From Fibrobacteria bacterium AD312 (GTDB lineage: Bacteria > Fibrobacterota > Fibrobacteria > Fibrobacterales > Fibrobacteraceae): a stretch of DNA of 37,364 nt. This document shows positions 32,798 to 37,364 of this stretch, one piece after another. The position numbers and the translations under genes were made by a program. The notes under the pieces were generated by a model. It saw only the letters and a list, made by a program, of their open reading frames with translations, was not told the origin of the DNA and did no database searches. The DNA lies in the NCBI GenBank assembly GCA_001462345.1, contig LIUM01000021.1:1-37364 (forward strand). Reading direction: 5' to 3'. Positions within the stretch are counted from its first letter, which is position 1; each line of letters opens with the position of its first letter.

Positions 32798-35700
32798 TTA
32801 ATTCTCATGGGTCAATTCCTCAGCAATTAATTCTGCTTGCTTGAGAACGGTTTCCGTGGCCAGCATTTGCATATCTGGTGGGTAGCCGTATTGCCGTAGA
32901 ATACGCTTTACGATCACTTTTAGCTTGGCTTTTACACTTTCCTTAATAGTCCAGTCTATTGAAGCGTTTTCTTTTACCTTTTCGTATAAAACTACGGCAA
33001 GCTCGCGCAATTTATCTTTTTCCATGACTTGTTTTGCGCTGTCATTATTGGCGATGGCTGTATAGAACGCATATTCATAATCAGATAAGCCCATTTCTTT
33101 TGGTTCTTTATCCATTTCATGAATTTCTTTAGAAAGATTAATGAGTTCTTCAATGACTTCTGCGGCTGTCAATATTTTGTTGTGATACTTATGAATTGAA
33201 GATTCAAGCATTTCAATCAATTTGTGGCTTTGAATTAGATTTTTCTTTGTTCTGGCCTTTATTTCATCATTCAATATTTTCTTAAGTACTTCTAGAGCCA
33301 AATTTTTGTGTTCCATGTTTTTGACTTCAACTAAAAAGTCTTCAGATAGAACAGAAATATCTGGCTTCTTGATTCCAGCGGCATCATAGATGTCAATTAC
33401 TTGTTCGGAGACCAAAGCCTGATCAATTACTTGGCGAATCGCTGTTTCTATTTCTTCATTGGATTTCCCTGAGTGAGTACTTTCGCCAAATTTTATTAAG
33501 CGAGATTTGACCGCTTGGAAAAAGGCCACTTCATCTTTTGCATCCATGGCTTGATCGTGTGGGATTGCTATGGAAAACGCTTGAGAAAGAGCTGAGACCT
33601 CGTCAATAAAACGTTTTTTGCCTTTTTCTAAAGATAAAATGTGTTCTTCAGCGGCTAATATCAAAGACAGTTTTTTGCTTGTGTCGGCGGTAAAGTACGA
33701 TTCATAAGGGAACCCGTGGAACATTTGCGAAACTACTTCTAGTTTTTCAAGCATTAATTGTACGGCTTGTTCCTGAGTATTGGCTGGGTCTCCTTTGCCA
33801 CCAGCATCTGAATAAAAAGACAAAGCCTTTTTTAAGTCAGAGGCAATGCCTAAATAATCGACAATCAAGCCACCAGTTTTGTCTTTGTAAACTCGGTTGA
33901 CTCTTGCAATGGCCTGCATCAGGTTATGCCCTTTCATGGGTTTATCAATATAGAGCGTGTGCATCGAAGGAGCATCAAATCCAGTGAGCCACATATCACG
34001 AACAATGACTAATTTGAGTTCATCATCGGGGGCTTTCATGCGTTCAGCAAGGGCTCGCCTTTGCTCTTTTGAGGTGTGGTGTTTCGAAATTTCAGGGCCA
34101 TCGGCAGAGGCAGAGGTCATCACGACTTTGATTACCCCTTTTTTGAGGTCATCGTTATGCCATTCAGGGCGCAAAGCGATAATTTCACTATACAGCTCTG
34201 CTGCAATGCGGCGACTCATCGTCACAATCATGCCTTTCCCATCTATGACTGATTGTCGCAATTCAAAATGAGTAATAATGTCTTTCGCTACTTGTTTGAT
34301 TCTGTTTTTACTACCAATAAGAGCTTCTAATTGAGTCCATTTCGCTTTTATTTTTTCAAAACCCTCATCCCCATCCCTTCTCCCAAGGGAAGAAGGGAGT
34401 ATATTCTCCTCTCCCTCTGGGAGAGGCTGGGTGAGGGTATCATCAAATGATGATATGAGTTTTTTGCCTTCTTCACTGAGTGATATTTTTGCAAGCCGGC
34501 TTTCATAATAAATACGAACAGTCGCACCATCTTCTACTGCTTGGGCAATATCATACACATCGACATAGTTTCCAAACACAGCAGGGGTATTCACATCGGT
34601 ATTTTCAATAGGCGTACCTGTAAAACCCAGATAAGTCGCATTAGGCAAAGCATCGCGCATGTATTTGGCAAAACCATACACTACTTTTTTACCAATCACG
34701 TTGCCGTCTTTGTCTTTGTCGTCGATCGTTTTGGCCTTAAAACCATATTGGGTACGATGGGCTTCATCAGCAATGACAATGATATTGGTTCTATCACTCA
34801 GCTTTTCGTAGACGTTGCCTTCTTCTGGCTGGAATTTTTGGATGGTGGTAAAAACCACGCCACCCGAGGCGACTTTGAGAAGTTCTTTGAGCTGGTCGCG
34901 ATTTTCGGCCTGAACAGGTTCTTGACGCAAGAGTTGTTTAGAGGCAGCGAAGGTATCAAAAAGTTGATCGTCTAAGTCATTGCGGTCTGTAATGACAAGG
35001 ATCGTGGGGTTATCCATGGCAAGGACAATTTTCCCTGTATAGAACACCATCGAAAGCGATTTGCCAGAACCTTGCGTATGCCAAATCACACCGCCTTTTT
35101 TATCACCTATCGGTTGCTTTTTAACACTTGGCAAACCATAACTTTCAGGGCTTTCACAAACCCGTAAGGCGTTCCCTACGGGATCTTTTTTCACATAACC
35201 CGATGCCCGCAAGGTCGATTCTACCGCTCGGTTTACGGCATAATACTGATGATACGCGGCCAGTTTCTTGATGGTAGTCACTGTCGTGATACCACCCTCT
35301 CTTCCGTCTCTCCCAGAGGGAGAGAGACTATTTTCAATTTTATTTAATACATTTTCGGGCTTATTGAGTAGTTCTTCATTGCAGAATCTTAATACTTTAT
35401 TTCCCAGACTAGTCAGATATTTATCTCTTTTTTTATCTTTTTTCTGCTGTTCCGGCAACTCATGCACAGAACCGTCAAATTCAATTACAACTTTCTCTGA
35501 ATTACAGAAAAAATCCACAATATAATGCCCAATCTGATGCTGCCTTCTGAATTTTAACCCAAGAAATTGTTTGTTTCTTACGAGGGCCCAGAAAATTTCC
35601 TCAGCTTTTGTCTGATTTTTTCTTAGTTCCCTGATCTGTTCTATCATTCCAGCATAATTCATACCCGCCCGGTAATGTCCTCCCTCCCGCCGGGAGGGAT

Positions 35701-36529
35701 TGAGGGAGGGGGTCAACTTTGTTGACCTTTCAAACACAATAAAATGGCGCACCAAGTCTAGCAAAGTGGCTTTATTTAACATTCCCTGAATCAAGATTTC
35801 CATTTGGTTTACCAAATGAGAGGCCTCGATTTTACCATTGACTGTTTTCCAGGCCATAAAACGGCTCAACCCGGCGGAAAGCGTTCCTGCCTTTGCCTCT
35901 AATCCATCGGAAATAATTAGAAACGCATTATAAGGGAATAAAGAAGGAATCGCTTGTTTATAAGTTTGCAGTTGATTAAATGCAGAATGAATAGTCGCGT
36001 TTTCATCAGCAGGGTTTTTCAACTCAATCACCACTAAGGGTAAGCCATTCACAAATAGAATAATATCAGGGCGTTTATTGACGTGATTTTCGATGATGGT
36101 AAATTGATTGACGACATAAAAATCGTTGTTTTCTGGATTGTGAAAATCTACCAGCCAAACGAGATCCCCTCGGCTTTGCCCGTCTTTTTGATAATTGACT
36201 TTGACCCCTTCTGTAAGCAGACGATGAAACGCCTCGTTATTGGCAATGAGATCAGGGGAGCTTAAACGTTCAATTTGCTTGATGGCATCTTCTCTAGCAT
36301 CTTCAGAAACAGTGGGATTAATTCGAGCCACAGCCGATTTTAGGCGATCGAGTAAGAGAACGTCTTCGAAGCTTCGTCTTGCAGAGCCCCTCACCCCCGC
36401 CTCTCCCAAAGGGAGAGGGGTTTCAGTGTCGGGAGCTATATCAGGGCCGTAAATGTATTGATAACCCTGATTTTCTAGTAGCTCAATCGCTAAAGCTTCG
36501 ATGTCGAATTCGGTGATTTTACTGCTCAT
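32798..36529 (-). CDS. hsdR: Type I restriction enzyme R subunit with inserted DUF559 nuclease domain
   Basis: HsdR translocates and cuts unmodified DNA as part of an HsdR2M2S complex. The N-terminal nuclease has the PD-ExK site R-P-D-I-I-L-F, then VVIELKNP (153-173). The SF2 motor has H-T-Q-G-S-G-K-S (Walker A, Lys490), I-V-I-A-D-E-A-H-R-T-Q (DEAH box), Y-L-G-F-T-G-T-P and Q-A-I-A-R-V-N-R. At 1243 residues it is longer than usual (about 1000-1050) because of three in-frame insertions: about residues 36-51, 272-416 and a third at 34362-34437. The second holds a complete DUF559 domain. The start overlaps the rhuM stop by 11 bp. Without a visible intact hsdM or hsdS here, activity depends on genes outside the window. 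Confidence 0.93.
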   Translation of the reverse strand: MSSKITEFDIEALAIELLENQGYQYIYGPDIAPDTETPLPLGEAGVRGSARRSFEDVLLLDRLKSAVARINPTVSEDAREDAIKQIERLSSPDLIANNEAFHRLLTEGVKVNYQKDGQSRGDLVWLVDFHNPENNDFYVVNQFTIIENHVNKRPDIILFVNGLPLVVIELKNPADENATIHSAFNQLQTYKQAIPSLFPYNAFLIISDGLEAKAGTLSAGLSRFMAWKTVNGKIEASHLVNQMEILIQGMLNKATLLDLVRHFIVFERSTKLTPSLNPSRREGGHYRAGMNYAGMIEQIRELRKNQTKAEEIFWALVRNKQFLGLKFRRQHQIGHYIVDFFCNSEKVVIEFDGSVHELPEQQKKDKKRDKYLTSLGNKVLRFCNEELLNKPENVLNKIENSLSPSGRDGREGGITTVTTIKKLAAYHQYYAVNRAVESTLRASGYVKKDPVGNALRVCESPESYGLPSVKKQPIGDKKGGVIWHTQGSGKSLSMVFYTGKIVLAMDNPTILVITDRNDLDDQLFDTFAASKQLLRQEPVQAENRDQLKELLKVASGGVVFTTIQKFQPEEGNVYEKLSDRTNIIVIADEAHRTQYGFKAKTIDDKDKDGNVIGKKVVYGFAKYMRDALPNATYLGFTGTPIENTDVNTPAVFGNYVDVYDIAQAVEDGATVRIYYESRLAKISLSEEGKKLISSFDDTLTQPLPEGEENILPSSLGRRDGDEGFEKIKAKWTQLEALIGSKNRIKQVAKDIITHFELRQSVIDGKGMIVTMSRRIAAELYSEIIALRPEWHNDDLKKGVIKVVMTSASADGPEISKHHTSKEQRRALAERMKAPDDELKLVIVRDMWLTGFDAPSMHTLYIDKPMKGHNLMQAIARVNRVYKDKTGGLIVDYLGIASDLKKALSFYSDAGGKGDPANTQEQAVQLMLEKLEVVSQMFHGFPYESYFTADTSKKLSLILAAEEHILSLEKGKKRFIDEVSALSQAFSIAIPHDQAMDAKDEVAFFQAVKSRLIKFGESTHSGKSNEEIETAIRQVIDQALVSEQVIDIYDAAGIKKPDISVLSEDFLVEVKNMEHKNLALEVLKKILNDEIKARTKKNLIQSHKLIEMLESSIHKYHNKILTAAEVIEELINLSKEIHEMDKEPKEMGLSDYEYAFYTAIANNDSAKQVMEKDKLRELAVVLYEKVKENASIDWTIKESVKAKLKVIVKRILRQYGYPPDMQMLATETVLKQAELIAEELTHEN
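34362..34437. repeat. Palindromic GC-rich element 3 inside hsdR
   Basis: This 76-bp segment has ends CCCTCATCCCC and GGGTGAGGG in inverted order, with internal CTTCTCCC/GGGAAGAAG and CTCTCCCTC/GGGAGAG hairpins. It encodes a loop (LTQPLPEGEENILPSSLGRR) between helicase segments. Orthologous HsdR proteins, as I know the family, lack such a Pro/Gly/Glu loop here. Confidence 0.75.
35282..35727 (-). mobile_element. DUF559 nuclease cassette flanked by palindromes, inserted in hsdR
   Basis: Residues about 272-416 of HsdR are an insertion between the nuclease domain (ends F-I-V-F-E) and the helicase (restarts T-T-I-K-K-L-A-A-Y-H-Q). Its two ends are GC-rich palindromes: 35294-35328 (ACCCTCTCTTCC...CTCTCCCAGAGGGAGAG) and 35679-35713 (CCTCCCTCCCGCCGGGAGGGAT...GAGGGAGGGGG). 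Next to the latter is a perfect GGTCAAC-TTT-GTTGACC (35711-35727). Between them a full DUF559 (Vsr-like, PD-(D/E)xK) domain is encoded (about 291-395), with K-F-R-R-Q-H-Q-I-G-H-Y-I-V-D-F-F (Asp339) and V-V-I-E-F-D-G-S-V-H (Glu350, Asp352). An internal ATG (GMNYAGM) after a purine-rich GGGAGGGAGG could also start the domain separately. Confidence 0.75.
36377..36425. repeat. Palindromic GC-rich element 1 inside hsdR
   Basis: About 48 bp with CCCCTCACCCCCGCCTCTCCC-type ends and a CTCTCCC-AAA-GGGAGAG hairpin encode TETPLPLGEAGVRGSAR in a loop where HsdR relatives run from Y-G-P-D-I-A-P-D directly to R-R-S-F-E-D-V. It is the same family as the elements at 34362 and 35282. Confidence 0.75.
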
Positions 36530-37364
36530 TAGAACCCTCTATTTGCTTGACTACTCTGTCAAAATCAGATTCGAAGAGTCGGTCTTGAATCAGGCGATAT
36601 TTTTCATATTCCGTTTCTGCATGCAATTTTGCCTCTTCATGTGAAATTTTACCCGGGCCTGTCAATATTTCATTTCCGTTGAATTCGAGAAATCCATCCA
36701 GTCTCTTGGCCCAATCTTCCATGGACATGGGGATTTTTCTTTCTGCCTGCAATTCCGCATAATCCAGATACATAGAAACAATTCGTTCAAGGTACTTCAT
36801 TTCTTCAGGGTTTAAATAATTTTTAGCTATGCTGACATCGGCTTTGATGATTTTCTTGTCGGGAGAACCATCCCAAGTGGTTAAGCCCATGTTTGTTTTT
36901 TTGGCATCTGCACGAGCCACAATCAATTCTGCTGCCGTATGACGATGTACGGCATAGTGTAGTTTGTTTTGTACCAGTTTAAAAAAGGTCTGGGTTGTTT
37001 TTGCGTCCTTATCGTAATCAAAGGACGTGGCGTAGATATCGGTAATTTTTTGATAGAACTTCCGTTCAGACAAACGGATTTCTCTAATATATTGCAGCTG
37101 ACGCTCAAAGTAATCATCTGTAAAGAGATGTCCTTTTTTGAGCCGATCCTTATCCATGGTCCAGCCCTGAATGGTGTAATCCTTTACTATTTGACCCGCC
37201 CATTTTCTGAAGCGAACAGCGCGTTCATTGTTGATTTTAAAGCCAACGGCGATGATCAACTGCAAATTATAGTGTTTTGTGGTGTACTTCTTACCATCAG
37301 CGGCAGTTGTTAAGTATTCCTTAATAACTGAATCGGGTGCTAATTCACCATCATTAAAAATGGT
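36519..37364 (-). CDS. RhuM-family protein, 5' end outside the window
   Basis: The frame is open to the end of the window; residues TIFNDGELAPDSVIKEYLTT lead into A-D-G-K-K-Y-T-T-K-H-Y-N-L-Q-L-I-I-A-V-G and R-A-V-R-F-R-K-W-A, typical of RhuM. A DUF-like helical C-terminal part follows (SERKFYQKITDIYATSFDYD, TQTFFKLVQNKLHYAVHRHT, A-A-E-L-I). The TTG at 37263-37265 is not the real start. RhuM proteins are often found inside type I restriction operons beside hsdR or hsdS, and their role is unknown; a virulence link in Salmonella gave the name. The stop overlaps the hsdR start by 11 bp. Confidence 0.85.
   Translation of the reverse strand, partial: TIFNDGELAPDSVIKEYLTTAADGKKYTTKHYNLQLIIAVGFKINNERAVRFRKWAGQIVKDYTIQGWTMDKDRLKKGHLFTDDYFERQLQYIREIRLSERKFYQKITDIYATSFDYDKDAKTTQTFFKLVQNKLHYAVHRHTAAELIVARADAKKTNMGLTTWDGSPDKKIIKADVSIAKNYLNPEEMKYLERIVSMYLDYAELQAERKIPMSMEDWAKRLDGFLEFNGNEILTGPGKISHEEAKLHAETEYEKYRLIQDRLFESDFDRVVKQIEGSNEQ

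Follow-up and report, generated by a model that had tools for sequence, protein, structure and literature searches.

The hsdR gene and its three inserts

The window analysed here, the 37,364 nucleotides of contig LIUM01000021.1 from Fibrobacteria bacterium AD312, carries an hsdR gene, encoding the R subunit of a type I restriction enzyme, which contains three GC-rich palindromic inserts, the middle one with a DUF559 nuclease domain (Table 1). Pfam matches to HSDR_N (residues 5-220), SWI2_SNF2 (427-697) and T1RH-like_C (910-1237), all present and in the expected order, identify the product as HsdR, with DUF559 at residues 298-402. In open reading frame analysis none of the inserts breaks the frame, and an earlier note on this DNA, which had described three in-frame inserts with similar palindromes and a middle one made of a whole DUF559 domain ended by them, was borne out on both points.

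Table 1. Position and composition of hsdR and its inserts in the window.
Feature	Position	Strand	Remarks
hsdR, type I restriction enzyme R subunit	32798..36529	minus	1243 aa, frame intact across three inserts
Insert 1: one GC-rich hairpin, CCCTCACCC tail, +11 aa	36387..36420		among compared alleles, window only
Insert 2, whole: hairpin, DUF559, hairpin	35295-35712		sequence reading, allele comparison
Insert 2, gene-5' end: hairpin CCCTCCC-GGC-GGGAGGG, CCCTCCCTCAAT tail	35680..35712		DNA-conserved across 5 alleles
DUF559 (PF04480) nuclease domain within hsdR	35324..35638	minus	core residues intact
Insert 2, gene-3' end: hairpin TCTCTCCC-TCT-GGGAGAGA, GAAGAGAGGG tail	35295..35327		DNA-conserved, 5 alleles
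Insert 3: two inverted hairpins, CCCTCA-type tails outward, no nuclease, REPIN-like doublet	34362..34437		common to window and L005

The PF04480 match scored 122.9 bits against a curated cut-off of 20.6, and DUF559 is the only Pfam domain between the insert 2 palindromes, with no HUH transposase among them. Alignment to EcoR124 HsdR halts at chain residue 269 and restarts at 300, which places insert 2 at the nuclease/helicase junction. G+C content is 0.63 in the palindromes, 0.416 in hsdR and 0.370 in the window, and in each of the four window palindrome pieces 4 to 6 of the 6 frames are stop-free, a count made with no control set. Inspection by eye revealed no target duplication at the hsdR inserts, an Rfam search of the inserts returned as its sole match a microRNA far under the gathering score, and Hint or intein families were not detected in hsdR at E <= 0.001.

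Empty sites and exchange between hsdR alleles

Relatives of the gene (loci and genomes are cited by our own L and G numbers) were collected by searching its helicase part against genome contigs, and the best 80 of 575 were used. These are 77-89% identical and come from many phyla and archaea, their source records including metagenome-assembled genomes (MAGs) labelled as Brocadiaceae, as a Methanophagales archaeon and as Borreliella garinii. With L082, which falls short of the site, left out, DUF559 is absent from the insert 2 point in 76 of these 79 loci and present in L005, L020 and L029; a separate search yielded L202, with DUF559 at the same point. The empty-site alleles that the earlier note had proposed to look for thus exist, here and in leucyl-tRNA synthetase (LeuRS; see below), and its counter-scenario, in which distant HsdR proteins would all carry the domain without palindromes, is not what we found, since most lack the domain and the carriers keep the palindromes. 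Among the alleles compared, insert 3 occurs in the window and L005 only, and insert 1 in the window only; from this nested distribution of inserts 2, 3 and 1 it follows that DUF559 was gained first and the doublet and the single hairpin later.

That all this reflects assembly or annotation artefacts, or chance GC-rich hairpins such as terminators by small genes, deserves hardly any credence: several sources are MAGs and the record names of L005 and L006 look wrong, but the same inserts recur in the independent assemblies L005, L020, L029 and L202, many hairpins are located in coding frames that stay open, and hairpins are missing from most matched controls.

We tested for constraint on the DNA itself in the five alleles with insert 2 (10 non-independent pairs), using the codons of S, R, P, G, L, T, N and E residues that both alleles of a pair have in common. 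The same codon was used at 179 of 201 such residues in the palindromes, but in the host gene at 1164 of 3334. When the window is compared with L005, the host gene has 369 of 830 third positions identical; DUF559 (65 of 90, p 6e-7) and the right flank (15 of 17, p 3e-4) are more alike. The right palindrome agrees at 13 of 13 third positions and insert 3 at 21 of 22, whereas the flanks of insert 3 reach only 7 of 14 and 5 of 13. In the other nine allele pairs DUF559 third positions (0.38-0.55) stay near those of the host gene (0.33-0.49), and those of the palindromes remain high (0.69-0.86 left, 0.89-1.00 right). In this one allele pair, the raised identity is most simply read as an exchange of the inserts, together with a short piece of flank, between alleles whose host genes had already diverged, as would happen in homing or gene conversion. 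The ratio of nonsynonymous to synonymous substitution (dN/dS) of DUF559 between the two is 0.12; dS values between hsdR alleles are mostly saturated, and those were left unused.

Some relatives carry other inserts. The hsdR genes of L006, L031 and L070 have further REP-like in-frame palindromes, among them repeats of the TTCGACTCCGCTCAACC type and a CCCC..GGGG doublet. The hsdR of a Nitrospirae MAG (L022:572-3916) has an in-frame GIY-YIG nuclease (aa 817-886) with inverted GCCTCCACC/GGTGGAGCC ends and clean empty alleles among the relatives compared; inspection by eye showed no target duplication there.

DUF559 and palindromes in other genes and genomes

Four genome searches gave 112 DUF559 loci, 104 of them with a tblastn match, and removal of three hsdR copies left 101 (best matches, not a random sample) around which we counted perfect GC-rich hairpins with a stem of at least 8. 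Per kb there were 4.0 at 0-50 bp from DUF559, 5.4 at 50-100 and 4.1 at 100-150, as against 0.2 at 600-1400 bp, an enrichment of about 25-fold within 150 bp of the domain, and the domain itself contained none at the 101 loci. At 76 of the 101 loci at least one of the two sides has a hairpin no more than 200 bp away, and at 38 both sides do. The bounding of DUF559 reading frames by palindromes that the earlier note had suggested looking for in relatives was thus found many times, and in unrelated genes. A general hairpin link for Vsr or GIY-YIG nucleases was rejected, with a hairpin at 1 of 24 Vsr loci (30 less 6 near contig ends) and 2 of 24 GIY-YIG loci (30 less 1 that is UvrC-like by frame length and 5 near contig ends); one nested GIY-YIG with inverted ends is that of L022.

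The association extends to whole genomes. We examined 232 genomes from the class to which Ferriphaselus sp. R-1 belongs (G171, in which L057 lies), with strong DUF559 defined as E < 1e-15. The pattern CCCTCTCCN{2,10}GGAGAGGG occurs in 43 of 53 strong-DUF559 genomes versus 33 of 179 others, 23 of these with weak DUF559 matches only (odds ratio (OR) 19, p 8e-17, uncorrected for phylogeny). At least five copies are present in 32 of the 53 versus 13 of the 179, mean copy numbers being 22.0 and 1.75; for Vsr presence the OR is 2.1 (p 0.054). Thirteen of 20 dispersed places examined, partly chosen for doublets, are doublets 66-119 nt apart, many with CCTCACCCC-type tails, like insert 3. In G383, which has 195 palindromes, a DUF559 nested in a DUF1156 methylase is ended by the same palindrome that is dispersed there. 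The palindrome-DUF559 link is general and extends beyond this hsdR. On a plasmid of Synechocystis sp. B12 (L368), a short DUF1156 gene is closely followed by DUF559 with CCCCCTCTCC-type palindromes, which gives the impression of a split methylase.

Nesting within unrelated proteins was analysed in 40 regions picked for long frames, a non-random set of 41 frames; in the Bacteroidota search, frames of at least 400 aa were counted by hand at 28 of 150 places among the matches listed. By Pfam, the hosts include LeuRS (two insertion sites), MetRS of Ferriphaselus sp. R-1, MetH, RecG, a UvrD-type helicase, HsdR (several insertion points), HsdM, HsdS, methylases of type ISP, Eco57I type and other types, and an aminotransferase that is BioF-like by reading, with DUF559 at one end of the frame in coproporphyrinogen oxidase, GATase_5, AIRS, N-formylglutamate amidohydrolase and QueG. 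A host domain flanks DUF559 on both sides in 22 of the 41 frames. Hairpins with a stem of at least 7 within 250 nt were present on both sides in 24 frames, on one side in 13 and on neither in 4 (20, 10 and 11 with a stem of at least 8), compared to 8, 95 and 717 of 820 control positions at a stem of at least 7. The 41 frames contain no Hint or intein family at E <= 1e-5. With no intein domain and no sign of splicing, the nuclease should stay in the host protein, in support of the earlier description of it as a lasting extra domain.

For LeuRS in the G512 family, 41 genomes were searched and 30 loci inspected, counting that of the query genome. At 4 of the 30, DUF559 occupies the linker that precedes the editing domain. 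In one of these, L269, catalytic residues and the palindromes are lost and the frame is kept, and other loci have short loops or different small repeat-like inserts in the same linker. The short repeat-like inserts of L280, L282 and L289 lie at the DUF559 linker site, and this linker looks like a hotspot.

On a DUF559 tree of 148 domains and few columns, the nested state requires 18 changes, at least 12 of them forced by well-supported branches. A single clade unites ten inserts found in HsdR and HsdM of several phyla, and another is made up of four copies of G575, one nested in UvrD, one at the end of GATase_5 and two solo. G208 has three DUF559 copies, 89-98% alike over 534-638 nt and with inverted ends; direct repeats are of 9 bp at the L327 border and 11 bp, 2 nt off the L328 border, and imperfect by eye in L326. 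Mobility of the palindrome-bounded unit is well supported. The nuclease also appears to be maintained: a core of 13 residues, chosen from these very domains, is fully present in 47 of the 51 nested copies and 87 of the 97 solo ones, D, E, D, H and D are near invariant across the 148, and dN/dS is 0.08 for a LeuRS pair and 0.07 for a solo pair in G487.

These data bear on whether selection for defence has given HsdR an adaptive additional nuclease in DUF559, with palindromes that are incidental. We consider this very unlikely, even though restriction-modification genes make up 22 of the 41 long frames by Pfam and the clade of ten is confined to HsdR and HsdM: 76 of the 79 HsdR relatives (best 80 of 575) do without DUF559, the same module occurs in LeuRS, MetRS, MetH, RecG and the BioF-like enzyme, the L269 LeuRS has kept its frame with nuclease residues and palindromes decayed, and the palindromes are conserved as DNA.

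In a profile search of 177,635 PDB sequences, the closest match to DUF559 was 3HRL, the endonuclease-like NGO0050 of Neisseria gonorrhoeae (E 1e-22), and the second was a weak one to 3R3P, the catalytic domain of I-Bth0305I (E 0.028). Foldseek with a predicted DUF559 model of low confidence (pLDDT 62.5) gave no match at E <= 0.001. EDxHD enzymes are counted as a homing family in a review (PMC3943268), and DUF559-bearing segments are reported to be mutation and recombination hotspots in Legionella pneumophila (PMC12308824).

ycjD of Escherichia coli K-12 (b1289), annotated DUF559 and located between sapF and fabI, belongs to the same family as the hsdR DUF559. A CCCCTC repeat, which we take to be the element called box C, was detected in 5375 of the 5426 E. 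coli genomes searched, the median number of places per genome being 16. Among three alternative E. coli alleles no clean empty ycjD site was found, an efflux operon following sapF instead. The E. coli among 14 control genomes gave no PF04480 match, though K-12 ycjD is annotated DUF559. We know of no established function or mobility of YcjD.

Elsewhere in the window, a RhuM-family gene (36519-37364) adjoins hsdR and overlaps its start, and around tRNA-Pro(cgg) (12449-13887) there are four copies each of an approximately 256-nt repeat and a 130-nt repeat, the 130-nt units holding tRNA pieces.

A possible homing-like element and its rivals

We think it probable that the inserts are copies of a REP-like (repetitive extragenic palindrome) element, with tail CCCTCACCC and hairpin CCCTCTCC..GGAGAGGG, and that its nuclease-bearing form is a palindrome-ended, homing-like element which becomes a lasting extra domain of its host. 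The palindromes on both sides would serve as the DNA ends of this form, and DUF559, distantly like I-Bth0305I, would cut at or near palindromes or empty sites, whereupon repair could copy the palindrome-bounded element into the cut. The element may thus home between alleles of one gene and sometimes jump to new genes, and nuclease-free palindromes could be moved in trans. Unspliced, it would persist as an extra protein loop or domain, since the palindromes hold few stop codons, and might decay later. The earlier note had put forward DUF559 as a possible mobiliser: the association part of that claim proved strong (OR 19, about 25-fold) and makes such agency likely, although the agency itself is something we infer.

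Several observations weigh against this account. The 2.83-Mb source assembly has a single DUF559, and the pattern CTCTCCCN{2,8}GGGAGAG occurs there at three places, all in hsdR (reversed control 0); a looser pattern gave six places versus two in the control, only the three in hsdR resembling the family. We therefore rejected dispersal of the palindrome through the source genome, and the earlier note had named just such an absence elsewhere as contradicting its proposal. A palindrome confined to hsdR suggests that the gene came with its inserts, probably by horizontal transfer. Relatives so alike across many phyla and archaea point to an hsdR lineage that has spread widely, and such an arrival would explain palindromes in a single gene, given these relatives and a family that is dispersed in other genomes. 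The proposal of a palindrome family spreading in coding sequence stands in part: the palindromes enter genes and repeatedly bound DUF559, but 14 of the 20 dispersed places have no spanning open frame, so that coding sequence is one target and not the rule. A fixed tail direction as a family rule was dropped, tails pointing outward in some elements and inward in others. Moreover, 25 of the 101 DUF559 loci have no hairpin within 200 bp, the genome association ignores the relatedness of the 232 genomes, and G258, G221 and G219 have 79, 57 and 39 palindromes, respectively, with no DUF559 match at all. Of the same tenor are the weak fold match to I-Bth0305I (Foldseek rank 39, E 0.7, TM-score 0.54), the unsettled bootstrap of the DUF559 tree, the less clear dN/dS of solo copies (0.25, 0.30 and 0.70 in G208, with dS ~0.05, and 0.26 in G030), and the absence, to our knowledge, of any joining activity of DUF559. 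In E. coli, K-12 ycjD has a CCCCTC..GAGGGTTAGGGTGAGGGG repeat downstream and none upstream, and at least 80% of the ycjD-locus query is found in 3362 genomes, versus the repeat in 5375 of 5426. Finally, the G208 copies bear an extra outer inverted repeat, and another transposase may therefore have moved them.

The last points lead to the alternative that the palindromes are ordinary REP-like elements moved in trans by a RAYT-like HUH or an insertion sequence (IS) transposase, with DUF559 as trapped cargo. REPs with RAYT are already known (PMC3733652), G208 has, besides its outer inverted repeats, the 9- and 11-bp direct repeats a transposase would leave, and both the palindrome-rich genomes with no DUF559 match and the many E. 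coli that keep the repeat without the ycjD locus fit it. We nevertheless hold it to be unlikely, because neither Vsr nor GIY-YIG shows the genome-wide and local enrichment seen for DUF559, and a nuclease core complete in 47 of 51 nested copies would be needless for cargo with no role.

The homing-like element that we favour shares traits with several known systems. REPtrons (REP/RAYT) likewise consist of short, GC-rich, tailed hairpins, often inverted doublets, which are dispersed and between copies of which the enzyme gene may lie, and REPs also occur inside genes, including DNA-repair and tRNA synthetase genes, according to PMC3733652. They differ in that the hsdR inserts have a CCCTCAC-type tail in place of the REPtron tag GTAG or CGTC, a DUF559 nuclease and not a HUH transposase stands between the palindromes, and here the nuclease form is itself nested in frame within host proteins. 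Insert 3, as an inverted doublet, resembles a REPIN. Protein-coding palindromes of Rickettsia (RPE, Rickettsia palindromic elements) have reportedly been described in papers by Ogata and Claverie. RPEs, which PMC3733652 mentions, are also in-frame palindromes kept in diverse proteins; they differ in sequence, and some copies here carry a whole enzyme domain, whereas the passage on RPE there mentions no nuclease. Moreover, an RPE trait is presence in many genes per genome, compared to three places, all in hsdR, here.

With I-Bth0305I and the homing endonucleases of inteins and introns the hsdR element can be compared in that a nuclease gene lies within another gene, alleles without it exist, one allele pair hints at an exchange that took a short conserved flank along, and there is the weak likeness to 3R3P; unlike inteins, it has no Hint domain, and its ends are palindromes of a dispersed family. 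3HRL and YcjD share the domain, and K-12 ycjD is followed by a CCCTCTCC-like repeat, but this gene stands alone and has the repeat on a single side. DUF559 is named in only 14 of 5.39 million papers searched. Among papers that connect it, or endonuclease domains, with palindromes, repeats, nesting or housekeeping genes we found none that describes this element, judging by titles and opening lines of abstracts in a literature that for the most part excludes subscription journals, and an earlier description is possible.

More broadly, and with the arguments for and against about evenly balanced, DUF559 and its palindromes could constitute a class of mobile DNA that is widespread, distinct from transposons as well as from inteins, and able to enter protein genes, essential ones included, as a lasting in-frame domain. 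Its nuclease-free copies would be the dispersed CCCTCAC-tailed palindromes, including the E. coli CCCCTC repeat, mobilised by YcjD-type nucleases, and GIY-YIG, as in the hsdR of L022, may act alike with inverted repeats of its own. If so, a large family of dispersed palindromes, one of them in nearly all E. coli genomes examined, would have a candidate agent. The findings also suggest a role for DUF559/YcjD, a family of unknown function, and they show how a whole enzyme domain can get into proteins such as LeuRS, MetRS and MetH with no splicing.

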